Of a stretch of 64,000 bases of DNA, positions 48,113 to 64,000 are shown piece by piece (within the stretch, counting starts at the first letter, position 1; the number at the start of each line of letters is the position of its first letter). Source of the stretch: Paracyclopina nana (lineage: Eukaryota; Arthropoda; Copepoda; Cyclopoida; Cyclopettidae); the NCBI GenBank assembly GCA_019096065.1, contig JAGUCH010000007.1, positions 6,904,501-6,968,500 of the forward strand, read 5' to 3'. The notes under the pieces are model-generated. The model had not been told where the DNA came from. It made no database searches and worked only from the letters and a program-made list of their open reading frames with translations. Both the position numbers and the translations under genes were made by a program.

Positions 48113-50820
48113 CTGAAAAAGACCAAAGAGTGAAAGGATGCTTTTCTATTATCTTATAGCTACCTAAAAAAATTTCTACAAATAAGTCTTGCTTCCTTGC
48201 TGTCATAGTGTAAAAAAACCCATAAAGTTGATGCATTTACTCCCTCAATAAAGAAGTGCATTTTTTTATTTTTTGCTGATAAGTTTTTTGGGAAACTTTC
48301 ATTATCAGGACCAGGGGCATATCCATCGAGTAATCCTGACGGAATAATTCTACTTTTGAATCACGCAACTATAATAGTTATTTCGTCCTCCGCTAGGGAG
48401 CGCTCCAGTAGCGCTAGTACATAAAAATAGCGCAAAATTCAAATTCAAGAACTGGATAAACCAGTGTGAGAGTTAGCGCTCACGCTCGCTCGCATCACAT
48501 GCCTGAAAGTGTTACCAGCCTTTTCCAACTTTAGCTCGTCTTAAAATAAAATCAGGCTGTTTTTATGGTTTCTTGGGGATAATTTGGAATCCTTATATCC
48601 TAACACCAAGAAAATTCCACAGATTTAAATAGAAATTTCGTCCTGCACCCTACCATAGCATAGTCCGATGACGTGCTATAGTAAAGCTGCGCATAGAGCT
48701 CACCTTATACTATAGATCATCTTGATCAGGACATGCATTAGCACCTTTTAGAGTGGGAAATGCCTGCTAGGCAATTAAAAGGAATGATGTTTATTTTTCT
48801 TCTTCAGCCTTGCTGACTGTAATTTTCACTTGCTGCCACAAGCAAAAGCCCTGCTTGGAATTGAAAAAAGGAAGTCAAGTTTATCTGTACTGCAGTACTG
48901 AGTAATTAATCATTTCCTTGAGTAGCTATACATGTGGTTATGACTTGCATAGAAACTTTTTTCTGATCAATCGATACATTTAATCAGGAAAACTTTTTTG
49001 ACCATGTGGCTAGTTCAAGCTAAATGTGAAAGCTATGAGACATGATTTATGCCCTTCAACTTTATTTTCAGTCCCCAATACTGAAATTGACAAAAGATGA
49101 GCAACTATTTTAAAAGGCGTCAATTTTTCCACTACACAGTGGCTCAAAATGCCTTCTTGACGCGCACGGAAAAAAACTCGCAAAATCGTTGCAGTCAATT
49201 TTCATAGGGCCGTAAGCTAAAAGCAGACATTCAGAGCTCCCAAGTCCGCAAATTTCCGCAGCCAATTTTGATGAATAATCATTAAATGTGGTCTGATTGA
49301 CCTCTCAGTCATCATAGATAAATTACATTCGATTCCAATCAAAAGTTATGGATGCCCAAGAAATGGGCAAAAATAACTATTCTAGCATTTTACAAGCTTA
49401 ACACTTTTTCAGGAAAAGTTTGATGTTGAAGTCAAATTTGAATCTGTATCTGTCAATTAAAACCAGTTTTGACTATTTCAATTGCTCAGAAGTCAACCAA
49501 ATCAGATGACAAAAATTAGTGGTAAAATGGGACTTTGGGCGATTTGGCGGATTTTCTCGTGCGCGTGAAATCGGCTTTTTGACCCACTGTGCACTAGTTG
49601 CTTTTATTATCCACTTCTATACAAATTATGACACCTACAAAACACTTGAACTTGTCATGTGTCAAGTGTTCAATTTGTCCAATTTGAAATGAAAGCAGAT
49701 TATTGCTGATCTTGCTTCAACTGAATTGTTGCTTTCAAATTCACTACATATGCTAGCTTTCTAGGTAATAATGAATACAATGAGCTCAGATCTTGCTTAC
49801 CCAATAGTTGTAGAAATATTGATGAAAGAAATTCTCTTATGTAGATATGGTGTTGACTCTTGGGCGATCTAAGAGCAATTGGTTTGTCTCCTTCCGCGTC
49901 TCCAAATAATGATGTTCTAGCTAGCGCTCAATACTACACAGAGCAAGGCTTTCTCTCCGCTGAAGTCGCGCACAAATTCCACTTTTTCGGCCAATCTTCC
50001 AACAAGCAAAAGCCTGTTGGCCAAGAATTGGAAATGGAATGAATCACGCCATCCAACAAGTTTTGTCTGAGCAACTAAAAAGACCTTTCATATGCTCTAA
50101 AATTACAAAAAAAATTGACGCAAAGACACCTAATACATTGGAGTTGAATTTCAGTTCAGTAGACTGAAAGAGACATTGGATGGTGCTAATCAAGTCTCAT
50201 TGCTTTGCTATTTGATTTTAATGCTGAGCATGGCCAAAAAATGGTTTTGAATATCGTCAAAACATAACTTGCAAAGTTTTCTAGATGACCAGCCAACATC
50301 AGATGGAAGAAGTTTGGTTATCCTTTTCCTTTTCTGGAACCAAATGGCATTGGAAAACTTTTTATTGCTAACACTTTTCCATATGAGAAGAGATTTGGCC
50401 AAAATTGGTATAAAGCAAAATCCTTTGATCTCAGATATGCATATTGGTTCTTTTGCAAGCTGCTCTGTAGCTATAGATTACTTTTTAATTGAAGATACTC
50501 TAAAATACTTTCAAAAAAGCTTTCTTTTGTATTTGAAGCTAGGCTCATTCATGAAAACAGCTTAGATACACCTTGGTAGCTCCTTTTTCCTCTTCTCCCA
50601 AAGGAAAGTTTTTTTCAGATTTCACAGGAATTAACCTTTATAGTAGAGAAAAGGTCCTGTTAGCTGCATCTGGCCAAAATGGCATTTAACTTGATTCAAA
50701 TGAATGATTCTTACTCCATGTAAGAACTTAATTGTTGTATAGTACCTACACCACTCTGACACAATTGCGGTAATTAGAAAGCCCCATAGTAGTGCGTGGG
50801 AACCAAAATGCACTCAGGGG
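48113..50820. other. Intergenic region between the GPCR gene and the Polinton
   Basis: No gene was recognised. It contains a MITE (49135-49591), TTTCAGT...ACTGAAA palindromes near 49066 and 50150, and AT-rich DNA. The left terminus of the Polinton should lie in or near its right part, but no terminal repeat was identified. Confidence 0.5.
49135..49591. mobile_element. 457-bp MITE, copy B
   Basis: The inverse-orientation relative of 33791-34246, with terminal repeats CACAGTGGCTCAAAA and TTTTTGACCCACTGTG. Internal landmarks include TTCCGCAGCCAATTTTGATG and CCAAATCGCC-type sequence near the end. Confidence 0.8.
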
Positions 50821-50935
50821 TAAGTGCAATTTGCACCCTTGTGGGGGTGCAAAGGTGCAATTGCACCAAGGTGCAAAACAGGTGCTTTCTCAGGGTTGCA
50901 CCATAGTTTTTAGTGCATTGCACTTTTGGTGAGGG
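50820..50935. repeat. GTGCAA/TTGCAC motif cluster upstream of the first IAP gene
   Basis: About eight GTGCAA or TTGCAC hexamers fall within 110 bp, several in palindromic pairs such as GGTGCAATTGCACC. The region upstream of the second IAP gene has fewer copies. It could be a regulatory array or a remnant of terminal repeat sequence. Confidence 0.5.
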
Positions 50936-50974
50936 TCAGTCACCTTGAGTTGCTACGGGGATAAAGAGCTCAAA

Positions 50975-51568
50975 ATGGAGGAAATAGTCAAATTTGTTGC
51001 ACCCATGAATCACAAGTATGCTACTTTGGAAAGTAGACTCAACTCATTTGTCACCTGGCCCAAATACTTAATCCAAACCCCACTTGAGATGGCCAGGGCA
51101 GGATTTTTTTACTCTGGGGTTGGTCACATTGTTTTTTGCTATTATTGTCATCATAAATGGGAAGAATGGATCAGGATGTTTGATCCTTGGGAGGAACATA
51201 TTCTGTGGTCTCCCAATTGCCCCTATGTCCGATTGATGAAGGGAAAGTGTTATGTAGAGACTGTCACAGAGAGAGCAGAGAATGACGACGACTTTTCAAT
51301 ACTTGAATGCATAACATGCATGATTTGCTCAAAGAATCCACGAACGAAGGAGAAGGATAAAAAACCCTATTTTGCAATGAAAGAAGAAGAAGAATGTAAC
51401 ACCTCAACAATACAAAATGAGTGCAAAATATGTTACAAAAGAGAGATCAACATGATGTTTTTACCTTGTAACCATGTGGTGTCTTGCCTAGTTTGTGGAA
51501 CCTCAGTCAACAGATGCCCTATCTGTAGGATTCAGTTGACTGGCGGAGCAAGAGCTTTTTTGTCTTAA
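50975..51568 (+). CDS. BIR-RING inhibitor-of-apoptosis-like protein 1
   Basis: A 197-aa protein from the first ATG of the frame (50975); the frame is open 5' of this but without an ATG. The BIR domain (about residues 20-85) has the exact zinc spacing C-x2-C-x16-H-x6-C. A short acidic/Lys linker follows, then a C-terminal RING (about 150-187) with C-x2-C-x11-C-x-H-x3-C-x2-C-x6-C-x2-C. Single-BIR plus RING proteins act as E3 ligases and block caspases; a similar role here is inferred. It lies 223 bp upstream of a paralogue in the same orientation. AATAAA at 51603-51608 is a likely poly(A) signal. The compact single-exon form and tight spacing to element genes favour transposon cargo rather than a host gene. 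Confidence 0.88.
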   Translation: MEEIVKFVAPMNHKYATLESRLNSFVTWPKYLIQTPLEMARAGFFYSGVGHIVFCYYCHHKWEEWIRMFDPWEEHILWSPNCPYVRLMKGKCYVETVTERAENDDDFSILECITCMICSKNPRTKEKDKKPYFAMKEEEECNTSTIQNECKICYKREINMMFLPCNHVVSCLVCGTSVNRCPICRIQLTGGARAFLS

Positions 51569-51791
51569 TTCTTTTTAATGTGCTCATTAGGTTTTCTCAG
51601 AAAATAAAGTCTCAATTTCATCCCAGAACCAAAATGAGGTAAAAAAATAGAAGTGGTAGTTTTATGCACACAGGTACAAAAGTAGTGCATAACAAGTGCT
51701 TTCTCATGAACAAAAGCACAGGTCCAGTGCAATGCACTTTTTGTGTGGTCAGTCACCTCTTGATGACTGGAGGAGAGAGAGCTAAAAAAAA

Positions 51792-52331
51792 ATGGATCAT
51801 ATAATTATATTTAGAGAAACCATGAACAAAAGGTATGCTACTCTGGAAAGTAGACTCAAATCATTTGCAACTTGGCCTATTGGCTTAACCCAACGCCCTA
51901 TTAAAATGGCAAAGGCAGGATTTTTTTACTCTGGGTGTGGAGATAGTGTCTACTGCTACTATTGCCATGGTGGCATACATAGATGGTTGCCTAATGAGGA
52001 TCCTTGGGTTGAGCATACATTATGGTTCCCCACCTGCCCCTATGTCCGTTTGATGAAAGGGGATCGGTTCATAAGACAAGTATGGCTAACTGGATCAACA
52101 GCGAGCAGGATCCTCAGTGAACAGAAAAAGGATGAAGGAGATGATGAAATAGAAGAAGCTAGGAGGTCAATGTTGAAAAATGAGTGCAAAATATGCTACC
52201 ACAGAGAAATTGGCATGCTATTTTTGCCATGTCACCATGTGGTGTCATGTTTAGTTTGTGGAACCTCAGTCTACACCTGCCCTGTCTGCAGAACTCAGTT
52301 GATTGGTGCTGTAAGAGCTTTTTTGTCGTAA
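51792..52331 (+). CDS. BIR-RING inhibitor-of-apoptosis-like protein 2
   Basis: A 179-aa paralogue of the preceding gene, from ATG 51792 (an alternative ATG lies 36 nt downstream). The BIR zinc ligands C-x2-C-x16-H-x6-C and the full C-terminal RING are intact. The N-terminus (YATLESRL) and the RING (CLVCGTSV) are nearly identical to copy 1, while the linker has diverged and is shorter. Upstream DNA shares TGCACTTTT and GGTCAGTCACCT with copy 1, so the promoter was duplicated with the gene. The stop is followed at once by AATAAATAAA. The convergent C2H2 gene ends only 47 bp away, typical of compact element organisation. Confidence 0.88.
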   Translation: MDHIIIFRETMNKRYATLESRLKSFATWPIGLTQRPIKMAKAGFFYSGCGDSVYCYYCHGGIHRWLPNEDPWVEHTLWFPTCPYVRLMKGDRFIRQVWLTGSTASRILSEQKKDEGDDEIEEARRSMLKNECKICYHREIGMLFLPCHHVVSCLVCGTSVYTCPVCRTQLIGAVRAFLS

Positions 52332-52340
52332 ATAAATAAA
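52331..52340 (+). terminator. Overlapping AATAAA poly(A) signals after IAP copy 2
   Basis: AATAAATAAA begins at the last base of the stop codon and provides two overlapping poly(A) signals. Confidence 0.6.
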
Positions 52341-52378
52341 AATTTCTTACATGTATCATACAAGTTTATTCGGAAAGC

Positions 52379-52972
52379 TTAGTTCCACATTTTGTAGTCA
52401 TTGGACTCTGTTTTTCTCACTTTGTTTGTTGCATGATTATCTAATGCACGACGATCATACCAATCTGGCATAATGCGAGTCTTTGGGTCTCTGGCTGAGG
52501 CAACTTTTCGTTTCTGAGCTTCCCCAAGGGCATGAATATTTTTTAAATGCCGCTTTAGTGAATTACCACGGGTAAATTCAGAGCCACAGAGGGAGCAAGC
52601 AAAGCGTGGTGCCTCTTCTATCTCCATGGGTGGTTCTTGCATGGGGTCAATGATAGTGTTTGATTCTGGCATCATTTGCGGCTCTGGGGCAACTTCTTCA
52701 ATCGGTGGTGGTACCTCAGTCACCGGCTGCAATTGAGCTTCCCCTGATGTTGGAAGAAGCTCATCATTTTGCTGCCTCTCTGGCTCTTGCACCTCAACTG
52801 GTGGAGGAGGCTCTGACATGCTTACAGCTGCTCCCATTTCATTCAGTCGGTTCAATTCATCTTCTTCTTCCCTTCTCATTTCTTCTTGAAGTTTCCTGAT
52901 AAAGCGATTATATACTGGGAGAGTCACAAGTGCCATGCTTTGCACTGCGCTTTTGAAGTTTTTTGGTCTCAT
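52379..52972 (-). CDS. C2H2 zinc-finger protein of the Polinton
   Basis: A 197-aa protein from ATG 52972. It has a basic/hydrophobic N-terminus, an acidic coiled segment (EEEDELNRL), a long Pro/Glu-rich disordered region (about 50-120) and one classical zinc finger C-x2-C-x12-H-x4-H at about 124-147, then a basic tail. It overlaps the end of the Lys/Arg-rich gene by 65 nt in another frame and is the last gene of the minus-strand cluster. A nucleic-acid-binding role (regulation or packaging) is inferred. I do not recognise a named family. Confidence 0.75.
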   Translation of the reverse strand: MRPKNFKSAVQSMALVTLPVYNRFIRKLQEEMRREEEDELNRLNEMGAAVSMSEPPPPVEVQEPERQQNDELLPTSGEAQLQPVTEVPPPIEEVAPEPQMMPESNTIIDPMQEPPMEIEEAPRFACSLCGSEFTRGNSLKRHLKNIHALGEAQKRKVASARDPKTRIMPDWYDRRALDNHATNKVRKTESNDYKMWN

Positions 52973-53318
52973 GGCACAGCAAGCTAAGATGAGGCAGGCT
53001 AGTCTTGATGATGGTAGTTAATTCTTTTTCTTTTTTCAGCAGTCGTTGTCGTTTACTCTTCAAAGGTTTGTTTTTATTCATTAAAAAGTCAAAATCTTGC
53101 TTGTTGTCTAGGTAGAATTTTTTCAGTTTGCTCTTTTTCCCACCTGGCATTGGCATACGTGAATAGTTGATATTGTAGATAACCTCACAAATTTTATCTA
53201 CTGATGCATCATCAATCCTTTTTAATATTTCACCCCTGTCCTGGGGCTTGGCGTTGCAAACAGCCTGCAGAAAGCCCAGTGCACACTTTTCAGGTGTAAG
53301 AGACTTCATGACTCTCAT
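52908..53318 (-). CDS. Lys/Arg-rich small protein typical of Polinton-like elements
   Basis: A 136-aa protein from ATG 53318. The N-terminal half is helical with an ICEVIYNINYSRMPM segment; the rest is very basic (KSKLKKF, KSKRQRLLKK). This pattern, a helical part with an ICE-x-x-YN-like motif before a basic tail, recurs in Polinton-related elements as I remember them, without a settled function. DNA or core binding is a reasonable guess. It starts 21 bp after the ATPase stop and overlaps the C2H2 gene. Confidence 0.65.
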   Translation of the reverse strand: MRVMKSLTPEKCALGFLQAVCNAKPQDRGEILKRIDDASVDKICEVIYNINYSRMPMPGGKKSKLKKFYLDNKQDFDFLMNKNKPLKSKRQRLLKKEKELTTIIKTSLPHLSLLCHETKKLQKRSAKHGTCDSPSI

Positions 53319-53339
53319 GCAACTACAAGGCCCATCTTC

Positions 53340-54010
53340 TTAGGTGCATGATGCTGGGAGGAATGTGATCATTGGGCTTTCTTCATCAAATATTCGGGAT
53401 CGTAAACGCACCACGTCCGATTGCCACACAGTAAAATCAATAAGTAGATAGCCATAGGGAAGTCGAGTTGCTTTTTGGAATGTTTCCACAAAGAATGAGG
53501 GGGAATAAGCTCCAATTTGAGAGGCAAGGGTTGTGACTTGGCGAGCATCTCTGGGATTTCTAAAGAGCACCAAGTACTGTGAGTTCAGTGAAATGGTACG
53601 CATAGCTCTAGATTTATAAAAAAGGGATTGCGAAACTAGAATGACTGACACCCTTTGATGGTGCACAGTTTGTGCAAAGAGCAACTCTAGACCATTTCCA
53701 TCTAAGGCAGCCAATGAGTCATCTAATATGAATAGTGACCCACTAGGATCTTCATCCAGATAGCTCCTGGCAAGGTCTTTCAGCTCACTTTGATGGGAAT
53801 GCCTCGAATGGTGCGTGAGACAAGACCTTGTTTTAGCATCAAATCATACTTTGGTTGGGATTCTTGGTAAAACAGGACAACATTTTTGGGCGGATCTTTG
53901 ACAAGCTTGTTCAAGTGCTGAAGGAATCGCATGCAGAAAGTAGTTTTGCCAGTTTGAGAACTGCCAACTACCAGCATTGAAAAGGGGTGATGTAGTGAAA
54001 CGTCAAACAT
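53340..54010 (-). pseudogene. FtsK/HerA-type packaging ATPase with a single frameshift
   Basis: The gene starts at ATG 54010, only 11 bp after the capsid gene. The first part (54010-53780) carries Walker A (VGSSQTGKT, about residues 15-23). The frame then breaks near 53785-53795; a stop follows, and the continuing frame (open to 53340) carries Walker B (SLFILDDS, about 53717-53740) and the Q-rich sensor region (VILVSQS). The total length of about 223 aa is normal for Polinton ATPases, which pump DNA into capsids. The break equals loss of one base. No classical slippery heptamer is visible, so mutation or sequence error is more likely than programmed shifting. Confidence 0.8.
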
Positions 54011-54021
54011 TATTTTTTATT

Positions 54022-55326
54022 TTAAGGAGCATGAAAGGTGACTCTTCGCTCTGCATCAACTGAGAAACCTGATTCATAGACTGCATACACAAACATGACG
54101 AGTGATTTGTCTAAGGCATTTTTGAACACAACTCCGATGTCTAAAGATCCTTGTTGGGGTTGAATGGGGGCTGATGTGCCACAGCCCAGGACATCAAGGC
54201 AATAAAAATTGTTCCCACTTTTGAAGCTTTCATAGCTGATAGGAATGCGTTCTGGGTGATCACCAAGACCAAGGGTCCTGATGAAATGTGTGTACCAATG
54301 CAGGTATTTGTTCTTTTCATAATCTAATTTTTGATTCACAGGTTGCACAATTTCGCCGTGTTTTCTAAAGTACAAATCAGTGATCCCGTGATTTGCAAAG
54401 ATGTAGGGGTTTCTCAATGTTCCACTTAAGTTATTGGAGTCTACAAACCCAACAATGATTAACCTTGGCAAATCACCTACCACCACCGATTGAAAGGTGG
54501 TTGAAGTAATGGCAGCTGGAACAGTGATGGTGTTAACTTTGACTAATGGGTGGTAGTAGAAAGCTGGGCTCTTCAATAGTCGCTGTTGATGCTTTTCTAC
54601 CAATTTAGGGTGCAGAGTGATAAATTTGACAGCTAACTTCAGTTTTGTCAGCTTGACTTCAAAGGTGTGGGTTGTAGATGCAGTGCTTGAGATGATGGAA
54701 AAGTCATCACTGTTGCGATGAAAGGCAAACTTGAGTGAAACACCATTAAGCAAATATTTGTTAGTTCTCAAGCAGTCCAAATGAATAAAAGTTTCAAAAT
54801 CAACTTCATTGGAGTGCTTCACCATTTCAGCTCGCTCATTGTAGCCAACATTGCCTCCGCTCTTGTGGTTAGTGCCTTCCTTGCCGGCAGTGTCTGCAGC
54901 CCAGCAACATGAATGCTTTAAAAAGCTGCTTTTGTAGCCGTTGTCGAAGCTCAGCAAAGCTTCAATGTATGCCTTTTGCATATAGGAGAATGACCCATTG
55001 TCTGTCACAGGAACACCGTTCAGTTCCAGTGTCACAAGTCGCCAAAAGGAGGATGGACAATAATTGACAACACTCACATCATCTGTATCTCCCAATAGCT
55101 CCTCTGCTCCACTATCAAGCTTCTTTTTTTGAATTTTAAAAGTCCCAATTAATCGTGTAGCAGACAAATCAATGTAGTCAGCATTGGGTGGTATGACAAA
55201 CTCTTGCACTGAGCTATCTTTTAGAGGATTGTGGGTATCATAATAAACAATGCGTCCATTTAGCAATCCTGCATCTTTGTGATAGGTATCAAAAATGCTT
55301 GATTGTTGATGCCTAAATTCATCCAT
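54022..55326 (-). CDS. Polinton capsid protein (major capsid candidate, F54H12.2-like)
   Basis: A 434-aa protein from ATG 55326. The N-terminal VQEFVIPPNADYIDLSATRL, the central SFSYMQKAYIEALLSF and the later RTNKYLLNGVSLKFAF fit a family found in Polinton-related elements and often labelled F54H12.2-like. A jelly-roll capsid fold is assumed for this family; I did not verify it. The gene is full length with no internal break and heads the minus-strand cluster (capsid, ATPase, basic protein, C2H2). It shares a 99-bp divergent promoter with the TBP-like gene. Whether it is the major or a minor capsid protein needs a structure prediction. Confidence 0.7.
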   Translation of the reverse strand: MDEFRHQQSSIFDTYHKDAGLLNGRIVYYDTHNPLKDSSVQEFVIPPNADYIDLSATRLIGTFKIQKKKLDSGAEELLGDTDDVSVVNYCPSSFWRLVTLELNGVPVTDNGSFSYMQKAYIEALLSFDNGYKSSFLKHSCCWAADTAGKEGTNHKSGGNVGYNERAEMVKHSNEVDFETFIHLDCLRTNKYLLNGVSLKFAFHRNSDDFSIISSTASTTHTFEVKLTKLKLAVKFITLHPKLVEKHQQRLLKSPAFYYHPLVKVNTITVPAAITSTTFQSVVVGDLPRLIIVGFVDSNNLSGTLRNPYIFANHGITDLYFRKHGEIVQPVNQKLDYEKNKYLHWYTHFIRTLGLGDHPERIPISYESFKSGNNFYCLDVLGCGTSAPIQPQQGSLDIGVVFKNALDKSLVMFVYAVYESGFSVDAERRVTFHAP

Positions 55327-55425
55327 TGCGTGTCAAGATACGTTTCCGATGCGTTAAAAACGTTGTTTCTTTGTAATTGAAATAGTGATCAAAAAAGGGC
55401 TGAGAACAAAAAAGAGCTTAGTTCA
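55327..55425. promoter_or_regulatory. 99-bp divergent promoter between capsid and TBP-like genes
   Basis: Only 99 bp separate the ATGs of two opposite transcription units. The interval holds CGATGCGTTAAAAACG, several A/T-rich runs and, on the capsid side, TTCTCAG (minus strand, 55400-55406) 73 bp upstream of the ATG. Structural and transcription-factor genes are thus probably co-regulated. Confidence 0.6.
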
Positions 55426-55998
55426 ATGTTGGGTGTGCAGGAAGCAACAACGCTCAATCCTAGCCTTCCAACTGTTGTTGTTCGAAACGTTAAACTGAGT
55501 GCAAAAGTCAATCCCCGCTCTCTCTCAGATATAGAAGGTCGGTGTGTTAGTGAGAAAATCAGGTGCAAAAGTTTCCACAATTTCTTGCAGTGTTATTGCT
55601 CAAACTCGTTGCGTATAAGTTTCTTTAGGTCTGGTGGTCAACGGAGCCAGCACTGCAACATTACTGGGTGCTCCACTGTCCATCAAGTTTTGGAAGCAAC
55701 GAAACTTATAGAGCGCTTAGCCCAATCTCCAATTGTGTCCCTGAAAGTTGACAACGTAACAACGGATTGTCAACTGGAGCAACAACTGCACCTTGAGCAC
55801 CTTGAAAACTTTGAAACTAGGCTTAATTCTGAGCTATTCTCAGGCCTGTATATTAAGGTGAATACCCCTTTTGGTGAAGTACTTGCAGTTTCATACGAAA
55901 GTGGTAAAACAATTTTTTTGAAAAGTTTGTCCGCTCAGGCTTGCCAATGGACAAGGAAAGCCTTGAGTGCCACTGCCTTGACTATGAAGACTCGCTAG
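55426..55998 (+). CDS. TATA-binding-protein (TBP)-like protein
   Basis: A 190-aa protein from ATG 55426, covering two direct repeats as in the saddle-shaped TBP core. Repeat 1 (about 15-100) ends RISFFRSGGQ...NITG then a helix LEATKLIERL, matching the TBP pattern of a strand, S-G-K/G, TGA and a long helix. Repeat 2 (about 103-175) has LKVDNVTTDC, a helix, NSELFSGLYIK and AVSYESGKTIFLKS, matching the TBP order NMVGSCDV...ELFPGL...FVSGKVVLTGA. Aromatics occur at positions comparable to the DNA-intercalating Phe pairs, with Tyr replacing one. It overlaps the TFIIB-like gene by 52 nt. It probably binds promoter DNA with that partner. It is very divergent from host TBP; acquisition from a host or large DNA virus is possible. 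Confidence 0.75.
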   Translation: MLGVQEATTLNPSLPTVVVRNVKLSAKVNPRSLSDIEGRCVSEKIRCKSFHNFLQCYCSNSLRISFFRSGGQRSQHCNITGCSTVHQVLEATKLIERLAQSPIVSLKVDNVTTDCQLEQQLHLEHLENFETRLNSELFSGLYIKVNTPFGEVLAVSYESGKTIFLKSLSAQACQWTRKALSATALTMKTR

Positions 55999-56693
55999 GA
56001 CAATTTACATTCTGCCCTAGATGTCTTAGCAAAAAAATGGCTCCCGAAGAGGATGAAATGATCCAGCTTCTCGAGAGAATTCACATGCCATTAGTGCTTG
56101 TAGAGCGGTTCAAAAGCTTGGTGAAAGCTAAGTTGGGGCTGGCACAACGTTCACTCATCAATGCAGTGTGCCTCTATGAGTTGTGCAAGGAAGAGAGTGT
56201 TCCACGCACACTTAAGGAGATAAGTTCGGTCTGTGGATTGACGATCAAGCGACTAACACAAGGGCTAAAAGTAACGTTTCCCGAATCAAAGCCTTTTCAT
56301 CCTGCCCTGCTGGCCTCTCGGTTTGGAACCCTTTGCGGATTAGATAGGCGGCAAGCTTTGTGCCTAGAAAATCTAATTTACGCTGAGCATCCACCTGGGC
56401 ATTCATCACATTCACCATCAACCTGGGTAGCTGCTTACATACTTGTGTATGCCCAAAAAAGTGCCTTAGACATTTGCCCTGAGGTGGTAGCAAGAACGTG
56501 CGGGATTTCAAGGGAAGCAATATCCAGGTTTTCGCAAAAGCATGATTTGGACATTTCAGCCCTGTGCAAGCGCAAGCGAAGAAGAGAAAGAATCACCCCT
56601 CCAACCTCAGGCACCAAAAGAGCCTCAAAAACCAAAAAGGGAAAAGAGAAAACGAATGAGCGAAGATCCCATCATTCATCATGCCGAGGCTAA
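55947..56693 (+). CDS. TFIIB-like transcription initiation factor
   Basis: A 248-aa protein; ATG 55947 is the first in frame. The N-terminal zinc-ribbon remnant has CHC at 8-10 and CPRC at 23-26. Cyclin-like repeat 1 (about 35-110) contains LINAVCLYELCKEESVPRTL followed by KEISSVCGLTIKRL, very like the TFIIB pattern of an A-x-CLY-x-AC helix, then PRT-x-KEI. Repeat 2 (about 120-200) has STWVAAYILVYAQKS and VARTCGISREAISR, a helix-turn-helix-like end. A strongly basic tail (205-248) follows. TFIIB bridges TBP-DNA and RNA polymerase II, so with the overlapping TBP-like gene this looks like a two-component initiation module. It overlaps the integrase by 13 nt. The zinc ribbon is unusually short. 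Confidence 0.75.
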   Translation: MDKESLECHCLDYEDSLGQFTFCPRCLSKKMAPEEDEMIQLLERIHMPLVLVERFKSLVKAKLGLAQRSLINAVCLYELCKEESVPRTLKEISSVCGLTIKRLTQGLKVTFPESKPFHPALLASRFGTLCGLDRRQALCLENLIYAEHPPGHSSHSPSTWVAAYILVYAQKSALDICPEVVARTCGISREAISRFSQKHDLDISALCKRKRRRERITPPTSGTKRASKTKKGKEKTNERRSHHSSCRG

Positions 56694-57760
56694 AAAGAGC
56701 CGTCAAACTGCTTAGAGATAAATATACGATCCCTGGACATCCAATTGCTTTTGCGGGCGTTGAAAAGATTCATCAGTTCTTCAAGGGGCAGCTGTCCCGT
56801 GAAGAAATTGAAGAGTACTTGAAATCTGTAGATGTCTTCACAGTCCATCGTCAGCCCAAGCCTAGTAAAATCTACAACCCTATTTATGTATACCACAAAC
56901 GCGACCAAATTCAAGCGGACTTGTGCTCATTTTTTCAGCAAGAGAAGTACAATCAGGGGTTCAAGTATCAATTAGTGATCATTGATTCTTTCACCAGATT
57001 CGCTTGGGTGGTACCATTAAAGAACAAACGTGGACCAACTGTGCTAGCCGCCTTCTCCAAGGTGTTTGACGAAGAAATTCACCAGGCTAGGAAACTGATA
57101 GTTGATGCGGGAACCGAGTTCCTCAATAGGCCATTTAGGTCGTGGCTTGATTCCAAAGGCATCAAGCTTCATGTCCCAAGAACCCTAGGGAAGGCTAGCT
57201 TTGCTGAAGCCTTCATCAAAACTCTAAAATCGCTCATTTCAAGATACTGCACTGAATACAGCACCAGCTCCTTTGTTGAGGTGCTCCCAAAACTTGTGAA
57301 AAGTTACAACTTTCGGGTACATCGGGCCATAGGAACAAGCCCTGTAAAAGCGGAACGTGATCACAAAGAGCAGCTGCGAATCCGTGAGGCAAATTTGTTG
57401 CGCTATGCATCGATAACAAAGCGCAAGCCTAAGTATGAAGTGGGACAGCTTGTCAGGATCTCAAGGGACCTTGGCAAATTTGGTCGATCCTTCAATGCCC
57501 ACTTTACCAACGAACTTTTTATTGTGAAGGAAATCGCCGACACAATGCCTATTCCCTTGTACACTCTCACTGACTTAAAGGGCCAGGACACATTGGAGGG
57601 GAGGTTTCGCAATGAAGAGCTCACTGGGGTCAAGCTTTCACTTCAATTGCATGTGGGCAAAATCCTAAGCAAAGAAGGTGACTATTGGACCATCAACTTT
57701 CAAGGGGCTCCACCATCATTAAGAGTAAAGTTGCATCGTAAAAATTTCAAGAAACAATAA
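56681..57760 (+). CDS. Polinton retrovirus-like integrase (DDE)
   Basis: A 359-aa protein from ATG 56681. It begins with a basic N-terminal zone, then a core with catalytic-type residues D79 (QADLC), D142 (VDAGTEF) and E176 (in KASFAEAFIKTLK, equivalent to the V-E-R motif of other integrases, but with Ala after the Glu). Spacing D142-x33-E176 is slightly under the classic 35. The C-terminal part (about 245-350) contains YEVGQLVRIS, an SH3-like DNA-binding segment, and a basic end. Integrases of this type insert Polintons and make 6-bp target duplications. The frame is intact, starts inside the TFIIB-like gene and ends 4 bp before the next gene. Confidence 0.88.
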   Translation: MPRLKRAVKLLRDKYTIPGHPIAFAGVEKIHQFFKGQLSREEIEEYLKSVDVFTVHRQPKPSKIYNPIYVYHKRDQIQADLCSFFQQEKYNQGFKYQLVIIDSFTRFAWVVPLKNKRGPTVLAAFSKVFDEEIHQARKLIVDAGTEFLNRPFRSWLDSKGIKLHVPRTLGKASFAEAFIKTLKSLISRYCTEYSTSSFVEVLPKLVKSYNFRVHRAIGTSPVKAERDHKEQLRIREANLLRYASITKRKPKYEVGQLVRISRDLGKFGRSFNAHFTNELFIVKEIADTMPIPLYTLTDLKGQDTLEGRFRNEELTGVKLSLQLHVGKILSKEGDYWTINFQGAPPSLRVKLHRKNFKKQ

Positions 57761-57764
57761 AAAG

Positions 57765-58675
57765 ATGCTTCTCCACTTAACTTCTAAACCGGAAACACCT
57801 CATTTAGCTAGCGTGAAGTTGCCCAAGAGCGGGGGCCTAGAATGTGGGGTGCTTTCAGTTTGCTTTTCATCTAGTTTCATCAACGAATCTATGCCTATCA
57901 ATCCTGATCTGCCGGCCATGGCACTACTTGATACTGGCTTGGATGTTTCAAAAGAGTCATTGCTCAATTCAGCCGGTATTTATCTGCAACATGTACCCCT
58001 GTCCTTGTTTCACTTAACATTTTACTCTCAAAAGAGCACACTAATCAAACACACCTAAAAGTAACTTATGATCCTGCCAGAGATGCTGTCTACCTGCTCT
58101 ATCCCACTCTGCAAATCCCTTTCCCATACTTGTGGGTGCATGAAGGTTTGTTCAAGTTCTTGTGGAGAAATACAGAGCCAAGCCAGGTTGCATCATTCAA
58201 CGGAAAGCACCAAGTTGATGGTGAAACATACTTCTCATTGAGCATTCGTCACTGGAAGGTCAAGTCTCAACACTATGTTTTCTTGTCAAGTAATGGTAAC
58301 CTTTCAGATTCACTGCCGACACTGTACAAGCCTATTGTGCACCTGACCTGTCCCCAACTTTTGCACCCACCATTTGTTGGGCCACCCATCATTGCATCCA
58401 TGGAAGTTGCATCGCCTCAGCAACATGTGTATGTTGAAAAGCAATTTAAAAATGCCCACGTTTTTGCTCTTTCCAAAGATTTCGAATCTGAGTTTGTTAT
58501 TCAGTTATCTGACTCTGAAGGAAACCCACTGAGACTTCTACCAAACACAAAGCCTACAATTATCAGACTGTTAGCAAGACCGATGGGAGAAAAGAGAGAA
58601 CACACATTCTTTGCCACTGCAACATCAAGAGGAGGCAAGAAGAATTGCCTCTCTCTCTCTTTGGATCTCAATTGA
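57765..58675 (+). pseudogene. Polinton structural protein gene 1, frameshifted
   Basis: It begins with ATG 57765 directly after the integrase. Frame 1 runs to 58058, then the apparent continuation is in another frame, open from 57932 to 58675. The break therefore lies between 57932 and 58058. The second part has DPARDAVYLLYP, LLHPPFVGPP and a C-terminal EFVIQLSDSEGNPL...TKPTIIRLLARP segment, which looks like the last strands of a jelly-roll capsid-type protein. That reading is from pattern memory only. Combined length is about 300 aa. It may be a minor capsid protein. The 3' end probably lies near the ATG of the next gene at 58583. Confidence 0.5.
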
Positions 58676-59358
58676 GTGTAGGGCAATGGAGCCTAGCCCT
58701 TGCAACAGTCATGTTCAGCCCTCGGTTTTCAAACAACCTCTCGGTTGAAGAAAGGCGAATTCATATTCTCAAAGAGTATGCCCCTAGTGCAAATAAGATG
58801 GCTGAGGAATTTGACATCATTATGCCATCAGGCATACTCTCTGTGGGTGAGCTCAAGCAATCTGTAACGTCGCAAAGCAATTATAGAGTCAAGTTGGACT
58901 TGGAGCCCATCCACCAGTGCGTCATTTTCCACCCACCAGAGAGCAATGCAAGGCTTACCCTCTCTATGAGCGCAAAATTGGCCCAGTTTTTGGGTGCCCA
59001 AATTCAAAAAGAGCAAATGAGCGCTAAATATCATGGCCACAAGATTGAATTTCCTCGGCCTGTTCAGCGAAGCAGTATTTCGCCCAATTGCATAGTTGTG
59101 TCTTGCAATGCTGTCCCAATTCAACCCATTGGAAAGCTTACGCTCCCAGCGCTTGGAATTGTACCAATTGAAACAACTAATTTAGAGGGTTTCATTTCAT
59201 ATGAGCCACCATCGCATCACTTTTTACCCATCTTAGTTTCAAGCGTAAGAAGAATTGAGTTTGAGCTCAGAACTCTGGAAGGCGCGCTCGTAAACTTTGA
59301 TGAGGAGCATCCTGAAGAAGAAGTAGTGCTCAATCTAATTTTCAAGAGGAGTCATTAG
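58583..59358 (+). pseudogene. Polinton structural protein gene 2, frameshift at a CT microsatellite
   Basis: A plausible start is ATG 58583, in the frame of the upstream gene. After a (CT)n run at about 58648-58660, coding continues in another frame to TAG at 59356-59358. The long frame has only a TTG near its beginning. The main part shows GQWSLALATVMFSP, SMSAKLAQFLGAQ, PALGIVPIE and a terminal IEFELRTLEGALVNF...VVLNLIF, resembling a conserved Polinton protein whose C-terminus reads as jelly-roll strands. Length about 258 aa. The repeat slippage could be real, polymorphic or an assembly error. AATAAA at 59400-59405 and 59422-59427 follow. Confidence 0.5.
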
Positions 59359-59399
59359 TTATGTGAACTTGGAATTTTTTTATTATGATCTGAGATTGA

Positions 59400-59427
59400 A
59401 ATAAAAACCAAAAAAAAACCGAATAAA
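59400..59427 (+). terminator. Poly(A) signals after the plus-strand cluster
   Basis: Two AATAAA hexamers at 59400-59405 and 59422-59427 follow the last plus-strand gene, in the gap before the convergent polymerase gene. Confidence 0.6.
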
Positions 59428-59482
59428 AAAAATGGGTTGTTGTAGTAAATAAGCACGACAATAAGAAAGGGAAAAAAAGTCC

Positions 59483-62400
59483 TCATTCATTATTTGCATT
59501 CATCCACTCCCTCAGCATGGTTTCTTGCTCCACTCGGGATAGCCCCAAACATCTTCTGCATTTGCCCTTGAAAATGACAATTTCAGGTGAGCCAAGCGGA
59601 CAACTGTGGTTGGAACAATCAAACCAATGACGCTTGAGGTCAGTGATGGTGAGGCATTTTTTTTTGAATCCATATGTCCCAAGCAAAAAAGTTTTCATGC
59701 GAATGCCGTAAAAAGTGGCGTATTTTCTCTTTTTTTCAATGTAGGTTTGAAAGTAGTCCTCGAATGTAAACTCTTTTTCTACTAGTCTTGAGGGGACACC
59801 TTTGCACCGCTTGTGCACCAAAGTTGCACCTTGCTTTGCTATCTTGAGCGCATAAGACTTGGGTCGAAGTGCAACACACTCCAAAATTTCTTCGTCACCA
59901 TTCACTTCAAGCTTCCAAAGATGCGGGTGATTTTTACGTGAATCATCATGCATTTCATGCTCTCTTGGAAAGTTTGAAGTATCTAAGAGATGCTTGAGAC
60001 GGTGCAAATCTTTATCGGCATTCTTCTTGTCCACTTTGATGATGTATGAATCTGTGTCATGGTACTGAACTGAGAGACTGTCTGGCCAAACAGCGGCAAA
60101 TTCAAAGTACAAATCATTATAAACTTTGTTTTTGGCCAACTCGAGAATGGCAAAAGCAAGGTAAATTGGCTTATTCAGGCGAACACGCTTTGGTTGCATG
60201 TAAACAAATGTCAATCCTGAGCCCAGCTCTTTGAACCCCTTGAAGTTTGATGAGTTAACCCACTTTTGGATGTCAACGGGTCTTTTAGAAACTTTCAGCT
60301 CAATGTAGCTCCGTACCTGCTCATTAGTTTTTCCATAAATGGAGTTGGGGATAGACTTCAGCATGTTGCCTTCAAACTTTGTCTTTGCCCTGGCTCTGCG
60401 TTTAAGAAAATCCATCATAAAGTCTTGGCCAAAGGGGCGCTGATCAAATTCCAAAATTGAGTGGATTTTGTCCAATCGCATGCCTATCCTAAGATAAGTT
60501 TGCAGCGTTGCCAAGTGGGTCATGTAATTCTTGCGTGGAAAATATGTTGCTGTGAGCAGTTTTTGTTGAAACTTATCCCGTCCCTCAATGTCCTTCATGA
60601 GGCGCCTAGTGAAGGTGGATACCATGTCTTGATCTACAGTCAGTGATTCAGGGCAGAGTGGAAAGTCACTTGTCTTCAAACAGATACTTGCGGGGTAGTG
60701 CAAGTCAACAAGAACAAAGTACCCTTTCCCCTCTGCCAAGGGGTTGATATCCATCAGGGGGAAATGCTCCACCTCTGCCGGTGAGAGCCACCGAAAACCA
60801 CCAACTGGCAAGCTTAGCATAAAGCAAGAGCAATAAAGGCTATTTGCATCAATGTAATACACTGAGGCATCATCGGTTTTAGTGGTGTGATGCATGGAGG
60901 CAGAGCATAGCCCTCCTCTGATTTGGGACTCAAACAGCTTGTAAGTGTCCAAATCGGTCAACAGTTCTAGCTCAACCTTGGTGAGCTTGAGAAATGAATC
61001 AAACCCCATCGATGGAAGAGTCATGTACCTCAGACTTTCAAGGCCCAGCGTCTCCATCATTTGCGATCGGTACACTTGCATGACCTCTGCCAATAGCAGG
61101 GTATCCAGATGCATGTACACCACCATGTAGTCTAGCATGGTCTGACATTCCAGCATTCTAAAGAGTTCCTTGCCTTTAGCATGTTCCTCTTTGGTAGCTG
61201 AGAAGTCTTGAATCAAGTCGCTGTAAAAGTGATCCCGAGCGGGAAACTCATGCCATACCTTGAGAGACTCAACACTGGTCACCAACTGGTAGGGAAACGG
61301 TGCTTTAGTCAAAAGTTTTTCTTTTCGACTCAAATCAAAGGTTCCTTGCTTGTTCTTGCAAAGATCCGATTGGGCAAGAATCGGATATTTGTGGTTGCTG
61401 GCTTCCAGTGTCTTGGCTAAAGTGGCTAGGCTTGAGTTCAAATGATGCATACTGTCAATGCAAATGAAGCTGTTGAACTGCAGGCACCTCAGCTTTTCCA
61501 TGTTTTTTGGCAAAGCTTTGATGCTTCGAACGTGGTTATTTTCAATGCCTTTCAGAATGAAGGAAACATCATAGTGAAAAAGGTTGTGCATGACCACCAC
61601 AATTTTCTGAGCTGAATCAGCCGCTTTCATGTTGCAAACATGGTGAGCGGCACCAATAAAAGCCCCAGAATTGTGGTTATGATGGGCCACAATGCGCTGG
61701 TATCCATCAGGGAGTTGATGCTGGGAACCATACCTCACGTCATAAACAGGATCAAAAGGCTCCAGACACAAGCAGCATCTTGGAGCGTCAAAAAAGCTAT
61801 CCCATTCCCTGGCTCCCAAGGCAGCTGGGACAGAGGCCGAAATTTTTTTCAGCAGCAAAGGCTCCAGGTCCAGCAAGGCTCGGACAAATTTGGTGCCAGC
61901 ACATCGAGCATCGCAAGTATCCCAAGCTTCATGAAGAAGGCGGCTTTCATGGTCAACAACCACAAATGAATATGAAATGGCTTCATGAGAGTGAGTTTGC
62001 TCCGTGTATGGTGAATCCGAGTGTGAGTTGCATTTGCATTTTGCACCTATAGCAGTTTTTTCCAGGACGCACTTTTGGCAGGGCTGTTGCGTTGGCAAAA
62101 GAGCAGACTCAAAGTCACCATAGATGACAATTGGAGCTTGTATTTGACGATTTGTATTCTTAAATTGTAGAATGGGAGGCAAACCGTCATCAGTTCTTCG
62201 TGGCATGATTTCCTCGGGACCAAAAACAGGAAACGTGCCATCGATGTAATGGGAAAACACGCAACACTTGCTTTGATGCTCTTCCAGTTTGGTAAATGAA
62301 TAAAAGGTGTTTAAGCATCTTTCGCAAAATTTGCGACGTGTGTTCCTTGATTCCTGAGCTCCATGCTTGTAGGGAGCTAAAAACTTGTTGATGTTTTCAA

Positions 62401-62734
62401 TGAGCAAGTATCTCCATTGTGTTTCGCCATCTGCTGATGGAATTCTCAAGAGGGGAACCAAGTACTTAGGCCTGTAGTTTTCAGGGGCTTGCAATGCTGT
62501 AACAATTGGCTGAACGCTGTTGTCATTTTCCAAGGAGAAGAGATGGATTGCAAAATTAAAGGTTCTTCCGTTTTGATGAACAAATTTTTCCACAAACTCA
62601 ATTTCATCCTCGGTGAAAGGAGGTTGATTAAAATCTTGGGGTGAGCAATCAATAGCGTGTGCCAGAGCGTAGTAAAAAGAGGCGCGCTCATTGACGTCAA
62701 AATGTCTCAAGTGTTGCACTCTAGGAATGCTCAT
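59483..62734 (-). CDS. polB: Protein-primed family B DNA polymerase of the Polinton
   Basis: A 1083-aa protein from the first ATG at 62734; the frame extends nine codons further 5' only through a TTG. A zinc-finger-like CERCL...H-x4-CC lies at about 137-157. The 3'-5' exonuclease motifs are ExoI YGDFES (205-210) and an ExoII-like HNLFHYDVSFIL (about 383-394). An H-N-H-like CCLCLEPF...AHHNHNSGAF...HHVCN cluster precedes ExoII. Polymerase motifs are A (DANSLY, D about 627), B (KSIPNSIYGKTN, about 790-801) and C (HDTDSY, about 891-896). The gene is intact and replicates the element using a terminal protein primer, as known for Polintons. It is convergent with the structural genes, and TTTCTCAG lies upstream at 62791-62798. 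Confidence 0.93.
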   Translation of the reverse strand: MSIPRVQHLRHFDVNERASFYYALAHAIDCSPQDFNQPPFTEDEIEFVEKFVHQNGRTFNFAIHLFSLENDNSVQPIVTALQAPENYRPKYLVPLLRIPSADGETQWRYLLIENINKFLAPYKHGAQESRNTRRKFCERCLNTFYSFTKLEEHQSKCCVFSHYIDGTFPVFGPEEIMPRRTDDGLPPILQFKNTNRQIQAPIVIYGDFESALLPTQQPCQKCVLEKTAIGAKCKCNSHSDSPYTEQTHSHEAISYSFVVVDHESRLLHEAWDTCDARCAGTKFVRALLDLEPLLLKKISASVPAALGAREWDSFFDAPRCCLCLEPFDPVYDVRYGSQHQLPDGYQRIVAHHNHNSGAFIGAAHHVCNMKAADSAQKIVVVMHNLFHYDVSFILKGIENNHVRSIKALPKNMEKLRCLQFNSFICIDSMHHLNSSLATLAKTLEASNHKYPILAQSDLCKNKQGTFDLSRKEKLLTKAPFPYQLVTSVESLKVWHEFPARDHFYSDLIQDFSATKEEHAKGKELFRMLECQTMLDYMVVYMHLDTLLLAEVMQVYRSQMMETLGLESLRYMTLPSMGFDSFLKLTKVELELLTDLDTYKLFESQIRGGLCSASMHHTTKTDDASVYYIDANSLYCSCFMLSLPVGGFRWLSPAEVEHFPLMDINPLAEGKGYFVLVDLHYPASICLKTSDFPLCPESLTVDQDMVSTFTRRLMKDIEGRDKFQQKLLTATYFPRKNYMTHLATLQTYLRIGMRLDKIHSILEFDQRPFGQDFMMDFLKRRARAKTKFEGNMLKSIPNSIYGKTNEQVRSYIELKVSKRPVDIQKWVNSSNFKGFKELGSGLTFVYMQPKRVRLNKPIYLAFAILELAKNKVYNDLYFEFAAVWPDSLSVQYHDTDSYIIKVDKKNADKDLHRLKHLLDTSNFPREHEMHDDSRKNHPHLWKLEVNGDEEILECVALRPKSYALKIAKQGATLVHKRCKGVPSRLVEKEFTFEDYFQTYIEKKRKYATFYGIRMKTFLLGTYGFKKKCLTITDLKRHWFDCSNHSCPLGSPEIVIFKGKCRRCLGLSRVEQETMLREWMNANNE

Positions 62735-62790
62735 GGCGACTAAAGAACATGAGTGAGTCAACTGTGGGAATTCTATGCACGGGAGAAAGA

Positions 62791-62800
62791 CTGAGAAAGC
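62791..62800 (-). promoter_or_regulatory. GCTTTCTCAG motif upstream of polB
   Basis: Minus-strand GCTTTCTCAG ends 56 bp upstream of the polB ATG. The identical decamer occurs at 50884-50893 upstream of IAP copy 1, and GCTTTCTCAT at 51698-51707 upstream of IAP copy 2. It could be an initiator (the TCAG core resembles the arthropod Inr) or an element-specific site. Confidence 0.45.
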
Positions 62801-62830
62801 CTACCTGTCCCGCAAAACAGACATGTCTAA

Positions 62831-63003
62831 ATGAAGAGTAATTTGACCGAGAAGTGGAATGTGCTTTTATTTACGTGTGATGAATAAATCATTATGCACC
62901 ATGATTGGTGGACTAGTTGATATGGACTAGTGGAGGTATTGGGAAAAAAAAATGGTATCAGAAAATAATATGAGATCATGGGACACGCATGCAATAAAAA
63001 AAG
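62831..63003. other. Short gap between polB and the unknown gene
   Basis: AT-rich, with an inverted GGACTAGTTGATATGGACTA-type repeat near 62910-62932. This is where a right terminal repeat of the Polinton might lie, but no match to the left side was seen. Confidence 0.35.
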
Positions 63004-63672
63004 CTATTCAATCAACTCATTGAAACCTTCATCCTCATCAGCCACTTCTCTAATGCGAACCCCGATGTCAATGCGTACGCTCTTTGCCCCCTCGATTTGA
63101 CCACTAGGAATTAGAGCCTCCAGCTTGGTCACAGTTTCTTGCGCAGTGCGCATGTTCCTCGTAATGAGTCTCGAGGTGCGCTTGAGTGCATCATCATCCA
63201 ATGTGCCGAAGCAAAAGATTGCTTCAATGGCAATGTTGACAATCTTGAGTGGCATTGCTGACACCCTCGCGAATGCAAAAGGCGACAGCATGGTGCGTCT
63301 TTGAATGTGCGCCTCAACATGAGAGACATAGGGTGAGGTCATCATGCTGGAGGGATCATGAAGTGCCATAAAATCCTTGACAATCCTCTTCATTGCATGG
63401 ATGTGAGCTTTGAGCTCATAACATTGAAAGATGCCACGATGTATTGCCTAGAGTAAAAAAAAAATGCATGTAAGCTGAAGCTACCTATATCACACCTGAC
63501 TGCATTCAAAACCATCAAGCCCCTCAAGGCCGGTGAGAGCAATGGTACCCGATTCAGCGCTGTCCTTTGCTGCTTGGAGATGGAATTCAATGCACCAAAA
63601 GAAGCGATCGACATCCACTGGGCGGAGCACACCAAATTGAATCTCCATGTTCATGTTGTCGTCAAACAAAAT
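63004..63672 (-). CDS. 3' exons of an unrecognised spliced gene
   Basis: Two exons are clear: 63672-63496 (acceptor GTTACAG, donor GTCAG|GTGTG) and 63447-63004 (acceptor ACTCTAG, stop TAG). They are joined over a 48-nt intron in phase 0. A further upstream exon, 64000-63896 (donor TTG|GTGTAT), is possible and in phase, giving about 241 aa so far. The product has a hydrophobic/aromatic N-part (VDVDRFFWCIEFHL), a central SPYVSHVEAHI and ARVSAMPLKIVNI segment, and an acidic C-terminus. I recognise no family. The splicing sets it apart from the intronless Polinton genes, so it is probably host or from another inserted sequence. Incomplete at the window edge. Confidence 0.55.
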
Positions 63673-64000
63673 CTGTAACAAAAAACCAGTGTCGGTGAGA
63701 AAAAAGAGTGTTTTGTGTGCTGGGAGGGGTGCAAAATGGGGCAAGAACCATACTTTAATTCTTTATGCATTTTTTTTGTCAGTTTTATGCCTTTTTTTTT
63801 TTCCCTTTTGCCTCAGAGGATAATTTTTTTCACTTTTAATGTTTTTTTTGGTCTTTTTTTCATCACTTTTTTCTCCCTTGTGGGAGCACATACACCAATG
63901 ATGGCCAAATGTCCAGCACAATTTTTATGATGCCAAGATTGCACCAACCGCTCCCTTCCAACGACTCGAGGCTGTCAGCTCTTGCTTTAGCCTCTGAGAC

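Follow-up and report, generated by a model that had tools for sequence, protein, structure and literature searches.

Adjoining TBP-like and TFIIB-like genes in Polintons of the copepod Paracyclopina nana

The pair at the locus and its two proteins

The stretch of the Paracyclopina nana genome analysed here (the window; 64,000 nucleotides, C7:6904501-6968500, from a genome of 92 Mb in 10 contigs, abbreviated C) contains the left part of a Polinton, element A, in which two small adjacent genes encode proteins resembling the RNA polymerase II (Pol II) initiation factors TBP and TFIIB (Table 1). A sequence-only reading had proposed both identities, and had placed the pair between the capsid promoter and the integrase gene as a module built into the element by overlapping frames. 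This arrangement was confirmed: the TBP-like gene shares 52 nt with the TFIIB-like gene (55947-55998), which in turn shares 13 nt with the integrase gene (56681-56693). Profile searches without a TBP or TFIIB hit had been named in advance as grounds for giving up the identities; instead, profile and fold searches return TBP and TFIIB. The pair is thus real, and chance is excluded because of the profile matches, the structure matches and the presence of the same pair at 14 loci.

The TBP-like protein of the window scores 29.2 bits with Pfam TBP (cut-off 22.9) over its second half, so that Pfam detects the second TBP repeat only. The first repeat is shown by the family profile, which gives a full-length match to 2z8u, and by the predicted structure; together these bear out a two-repeat saddle fold. 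The sequence-only reading had also pointed to aromatic residues near the intercalating positions. In an alignment with host TBP, the four DNA-intercalating aromatic positions, which we take to be the phenylalanines that intercalate DNA in TBP, are F or Y in all five families of the element described below. Across these families Pfam TBP exceeds its cut-off in four of the five proteins and at 11 of the 14 loci. When the predicted structure is compared with a viral library, most named matches are giant-virus proteins, and U58, a UL87-type protein and BcRF1 are also among the fold matches. The giant-virus matches would fit a scheme in which the pair is part of a giant-virus-type system whose RNA polymerase is supplied by a helper virus, as for virophages. 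This scheme is highly improbable, as it rests on analogy and the element has integrase, polymerase and capsid-like genes of its own.

The open reading frame (ORF) of the TFIIB-like protein is listed from a TTG at 55941, and its first ATG lies at 55947. The window protein matches human TFIIB in the Protein Data Bank (PDB) at 2.8e-8, whereas its Pfam TFIIB score (23.5 bits) falls just below the cut-off of 23.6. The two cyclin-like core repeats claimed from the sequence are present. The short zinc ribbon claimed with them is degenerate in the window copy, and its N-terminal cysteine motif, CxC or CxH followed by CxxC, is kept in 6/6 aligned TFIIB-like sequences (including P0011, a protein from outside this genome). 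Pfam Zn_Ribbon_TF is matched in families C and D alone (21.7 and 22.1 bits, below the cut-off of 29) and not in the window copy. The TFIIB-like protein of family D (P0010, L021:1228-2406) is extended at its C-terminus by a long segment that includes a hydrophobic stretch and a basic tail; in family C a separate small ORF (L016:1965-2447) lies in the place of this extension.

Relatives of the pair, selection and the element that carries it

Both proteins and both Pfam families served to search the genome for further pairs at a limit of E<=1, where a few D-type matches are weak alone. The loci, read individually, form five families, A, A', B, C and D (Table 1). Gene order is the same in all five: a capsid gene (-), followed by the TBP-like (+), TFIIB-like (+) and integrase (+) genes. 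Measured between first ATGs, the gap from the capsid start to the TBP start is 99, 45, 29, 35 and 227 nt in the five families. The TFIIB-like and integrase genes overlap in A and B and are immediate neighbours in A' and D; in family C an extra ORF lies between them. When the genome was searched with the capsid-like protein, 15 places matched at E<=1e-5, 14 of which lie, by coordinates, next to both TBP and TFIIB. At the remaining one (C3:8996259), a D-type fragment adjoins a retroelement-like integrase, and the 5 kb read contain no pair. Disrupted frames in all relatives would have spoken against the pair as a working module; both frames are open at 10 of the 14 loci (three in A, one in A', three in B, two in C and one in D), and the single stops counted in C and A' simply mark where the genes end. 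Two D-type remnants (L070 and L071) keep parts of the TFIIB-like and integrase genes, with no TBP match in the 5 kb read.

The position next to the integrase gene raises the possibility of a different role, in which the pair guides the integrase to host promoters, as Ty3 integrase is guided to TFIIIB-bound tRNA genes; the overlap of the TFIIB-like and integrase genes would then reflect tethering. The overlap or direct adjacency in four families is as expected from such a role, as is the presence of the Ty3-TFIIIB complex 7q5b among the matches of the TFIIB-like protein. However, family C separates the two genes, the pair is no less constant a neighbour of the capsid gene than of the integrase gene, and in a further Polinton, family E, an integrase is present but the part read shows no pair. 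In addition, a search limited to tRNA genes found none in the flanks of the three A copies (0.15-5.7 kb per side, three of the six sides being short). Integration targeting is therefore considered unlikely.

Genome-wide, the integrase has 58 matches, about 30 of them weak (~25-33% identity, mostly long frames). At three places two inverted A-type integrases lie 15-17 kb apart (C7:4631844/4648247, C9:2262696/2279110 and C3:1719009/1735961; L005-L010). Where these loci were read, a zinc-finger gene is joined to the C-terminus of the TFIIB-like protein, and the intervening stretch, which would hold the ATPase, capsid and TBP genes and the TFIIB N-terminus, is missing; they look like deletion derivatives.

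The pair is under purifying selection. Over the pair, the B copies of C2 and C9 share 92.7% identity, and their ratio of nonsynonymous to synonymous substitution rates (dN/dS) is 0.18 for TBP (204 codons, Fisher 2e-7; 0.11 without the overlap) and 0.17 for TFIIB (390 codons, Fisher 8e-15; 0.15 without the overlap), next to 0.06 for the integrase. For TBP between C and C', dN is 0.175 at a dS of 2.9, which is near saturation. TFIIB of D compared with the L070 remnant (dN 0.121, dS 0.384) is under weaker constraint, as expected if L070 has been decaying. A and A' were left out of these comparisons because their synonymous sites are saturated (pS ~0.84).

Outside this genome, single-protein searches of a collection of 5.8 billion proteins gave nothing at E<=10. 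An alignment search of the same collection gave three proteins at E<=1 among 7239 candidates. One of them, P0011 (2.2e-43, 229 amino acids, longest contig 11 kb), is a Polinton-type TFIIB by alignment. The other two are a poppy protein with tandem TFIIB domains, which falls outside the element clade in the tree described next, and an archaeal-looking JGI protein named TFIIB. No relative was confirmed among viral contigs scanned with P0011 and with alignments of TBP, TFIIB, integrase and capsid. The sequence-only reading had proposed a phylogeny of both proteins against host and viral homologues, which was carried out as one small TFIIB tree (11 rows, hand-trimmed cores, long branches) and is to be read as a lead only. 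In this tree P0011 joins the element proteins in a single clade (99/97), and host TFIIB, BRF1, the poppy protein and P0013 all fall outside it.

These data bear on the possibility that the genes were recently captured from the host and have no role in the element. In its favour, other host-like genes occur in element A (BIR-RING genes and a Ras-like fragment). Conversely, beyond A' the pair has diverged from that of the window (21-30% identity) roughly as far as the capsid protein has (26-32%), with gene order kept; the small tree separates the element proteins from host TFIIB and BRF1; and selection has preserved the pair. Recent capture without function is accordingly very hard to credit.

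Element A itself was identified as a Polinton from its inverted repeats, target duplications, rve integrase and family-B polymerase. Its three copies measure 21,636 (C7), 21,694 (C1) and 22,355 bp (C2), and all three are flanked by perfect 6-bp target duplications (CTTAAT, ACCGAC and CGCGCC, respectively). The extent of the left inverted repeat is taken from the C1 copy, whose terminal inverted repeats are 94% identical over 454 columns (blastn of both ends). From capsid to integrase the window copy is identical to the C1 copy, and four mismatches and one gap set it apart from the C2 copy; all three encode the same TBP-like and TFIIB-like proteins (100% identity). To the left of this stretch the copies agree to 99.7-99.8%, and to its right to 97-99%. 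The near-identity and the perfect target duplications suggest that the A copies were inserted recently.

The name capsid rests on position and element type because no sequence profile is matched: the putative capsid protein gives nothing over a Pfam cut-off and no PDB profile match. The gene is conserved at the expected place, with 434-464 amino acids in A, A' and B. The ATPase-like gene is split between two frames in the window copy, and its protein stays below the cut-off of P-loop families (Pox_A32 17.0-18.7 bits, cut-off 22.8); in the C2 copy, and in C1 to the extent that it was read, the gene is in a single frame, so that intact copies exist. The A' polymerase matches PF03175 at 1.3e-21, and the window polymerase itself has no Pfam match at E 0.1 and no PHROG or PDB polymerase match. 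General Pfam scans of A and A' proteins turned up no adenovirus-type protease, for which no dedicated search was made. A minor-capsid-like region (57765-59358) is spread over three frames in the window copy. The right part of element A holds a Ras/Rab-like fragment (L062:5746-6102, -; Pfam Ras 25.4 bits, cut-off 21.6) and repeats of about 166 nt (L062:4405-5056), whose matches differ between the C7 and C2 copies. One BIR-RING gene is found in A' as well (L067:7432-7965). The TTAGG repeat is linked with arthropods, and the arthropod label used in the sequence-only reading fits the TTAGG arrays of this genome (six-unit pattern, 4337 forward and 3631 reverse matches), with listed places near both ends of contig C1.

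Table 1. Features of element A in the window, and loci of the related Polinton families
Feature	Position	Strand	Basis or remark
Polinton element A	50733..64000	.	left end to window end; continues to C7:6976868, 21,636 bp in total
Left terminal inverted repeat, ~453 nt	50733..51185	.	
BIR-RING inhibitor-of-apoptosis-like gene	50975..51568	+	Pfam BIR 62.1 bits, RING 53.4 bits; start inside the terminal inverted repeat
Second BIR-RING gene	51792..52331	+	Pfam BIR 73.4 bits, RING 46 bits
Packaging-ATPase-like gene	53340..54010	-	63-75% identical to the A' ATPase in two frames
Putative major capsid protein	54022..55326	-	homologues at the same place in other families
Divergent promoter region, 99 nt	55327..55425	.	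between capsid and TBP genes
TBP-like gene, 190 amino acids	55426..55998	+	Pfam, family profile, predicted structure
TFIIB-like gene, 248 amino acids from first ATG	55947..56693	+	Pfam, PDB match, family profile, predicted structure
rve-family integrase	56681..57760	+	Pfam rve 41.3 bits (cut-off 32.6)
Family-B DNA polymerase	59483..62734	-	65% identical to the A' protein over 1089 columns
Family A	C1, C2, C7 (window)		three copies
Family A'	C3:5881k		
Family B	C2:6458k, C8:1924k, C9:3983k		
Family C	C1:16398k, C3:9663k		decayed copies C1:1070k, C2:2003k, C2:14452k
Family D	C9:811k		decayed copy C9:830k
Family E Polinton	L072 = C9:6277500-6282500; C1:16555475; C4:2812896; C9:1663067		integrase of 412 amino acids, capsid-like gene (L072)

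A candidate promoter class of the element

The homology and folds of the two proteins, the retention of the aromatic positions, the conserved gene order and the purifying selection are all observed. They show one Polinton lineage to encode its own TBP-like/TFIIB-like pair as a fixed module, which would probably give it a private class of promoters. The TBP-like protein would bind and bend an element-specific core promoter, and the TFIIB-like protein would sit on the TBP-like protein and promoter and recruit host Pol II. Recruitment of the host enzyme is proposed because scans of element proteins gave no hit to a polymerase subunit: Pfam families of RNA polymerase were absent from 18 A and 6 A' proteins and from 4 more. 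The private promoters would most likely serve the capsid gene and other late genes. As the sequence-only reading had suggested, promoter choice, late-gene use and competition with the host are plausible functions.

Several observations weigh against this proposal. Pfam TBP is below its cut-off in family B, and Pfam TFIIB exceeds its cut-off in one of the five family proteins (A') and at 2 of the 14 loci (A' and C1:1070k), so that the TFIIB naming rests on profiles and fold. The Pfam scans for polymerase covered part of the ORFs and would miss spliced genes. Family E lacks the pair in the 5 kb read at one of its four loci (L072), which indicates that Polintons in general do not need it; genome searches at E<=1, which could miss a strongly diverged pair, gave no TBP or TFIIB match near any of the four loci, and the pair appears to mark one Polinton lineage. 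No clear shared promoter motif emerged when 39 upstream regions (16 from A, 16 from A' and 7 from B-D) were scanned with seven patterns. TATAWA occurs in 2 of these regions against 0.8 expected; both are capsid/TBP gaps, of A' and of D, and each holds an ordinary TATA box that could be read by host TBP. The 99-nt gap of the window contains none of TATAWA, TATAAA and TTTAAA. TAAAAA, one of the seven patterns, is found in 8 of the 39 regions against 3.7 expected, a count reached by 3 of 200 shuffles.

The N-terminus of the window TFIIB-like protein is a further difficulty. Only about 6 residues separate the last ribbon cysteine from the first cyclin helix, which leaves no room for a B-reader or B-linker, and nearly all of the first 22 residues of the model have a predicted local distance difference test score (pLDDT) <50. 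For lack of this room the protein is called TFIIB-like and not TFIIB. A protein of this kind may bind without supporting start-site opening, as in a scheme of host interference where the pair acts as a decoy that binds host partners of TBP and TFIIB and lowers host transcription, with no promoters of its own. A decoy does not need the DNA-facing aromatic positions, however, and these are kept in 5/5 families; families C and D, moreover, keep a longer N-terminus with CxH...CxxC. The decoy scheme is regarded as a minor contender, and a private promoter class read by the pair remains the favoured explanation.

A bolder form of the promoter proposal, to which roughly even chances are given, holds that the pair, in an element without an RNA polymerase, would define a Pol II promoter class used by the element only. 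The pair would also toggle the element from silent transposon to virion production and back, and would predate the divergence of families whose capsid proteins today share only ~26-32% identity. To our knowledge, whether Polintons make virions and how their capsid genes are turned on in the host nucleus is an open question. Polinton particles have not been observed so far, according to a vertebrate Maverick study (PMC8097293). The conserved pair adjoining the capsid promoter is a concrete candidate for such a switch, composed of two small proteins and a 99-nt promoter. If the proposal is true, takeover of the earliest stages of Pol II initiation by a virus-like element would extend beyond giant viruses, poxviruses, mirusviruses and herpesviruses, and the TFIIB-like protein, minimal in that it lacks reader and linker, would offer a handle on what those parts do.

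Comparison with known systems

Element A resembles Polintons/Mavericks (adintovirus-like) in its 6-bp target duplication, terminal inverted repeats, rve integrase, family-B polymerase and ATPase-like and capsid-like genes, and differs from them by the TBP-like/TFIIB-like pair. The sequence-only reading knew of no described Polinton carrying both proteins. Among the matches listed in a literature search, none describes TBP or TFIIB in a Polinton by title or abstract start, most subscription papers lying outside that search. Passages of five candidate papers (PMC11464507, PMC12638062, PMC10675990, PMC13037468 and PMC10132985) do not mention such a gene either, the vertebrate Maverick paper contains no word beginning with "transcription" (PMC8097293), and another contains neither TFIIB nor TATA (PMC10120064).

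TFIIB is a marker gene of the giant viruses (Nucleocytoviricota; PMC12638062), and megavirus encodes TBP, TFIIB and eight polymerase subunits (PMC11464507). Giant viruses bring their own RNA polymerase, whereas none was hit in the element, which is ~22 kb. Poxvirus VITF-3 is described as an atypical viral TBP/TFIIB pair, and in this it is like the pair of the element, but its promoter recognition needs the viral RNA polymerase (PMC12917281). In mirusviruses, which have an HK97-type capsid and genomes of up to >400 kb (PMC10132985, PMC10675990), a TBP gene cluster is reported from 59% of genomes (PMC10132985), and TBP is sporadic in mirus-like endogenous elements of a green alga (PMC10675990); the passages on TBP in these two papers do not describe a TBP and TFIIB pairing beside a capsid gene. 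The herpesvirus TBP mimic ORF24/UL87/BcRF1 has a TBP fold and brings host Pol II to viral late promoters (PMC7498053, PMC12529657), which corresponds to the first half of the mechanism proposed here, with host Pol II. Its partners, however, are other viral proteins and not a viral TFIIB, and the ORF24 model is reported to be incompatible with direct TFIIB binding (PMC12529657). Viral TBPs have been described in giant viruses, mirusviruses and herpesviruses, and viral TFIIBs in giant viruses; what appears to be new is a TBP-like/TFIIB-like pair in a small integrating animal element with no detected RNA polymerase of its own.
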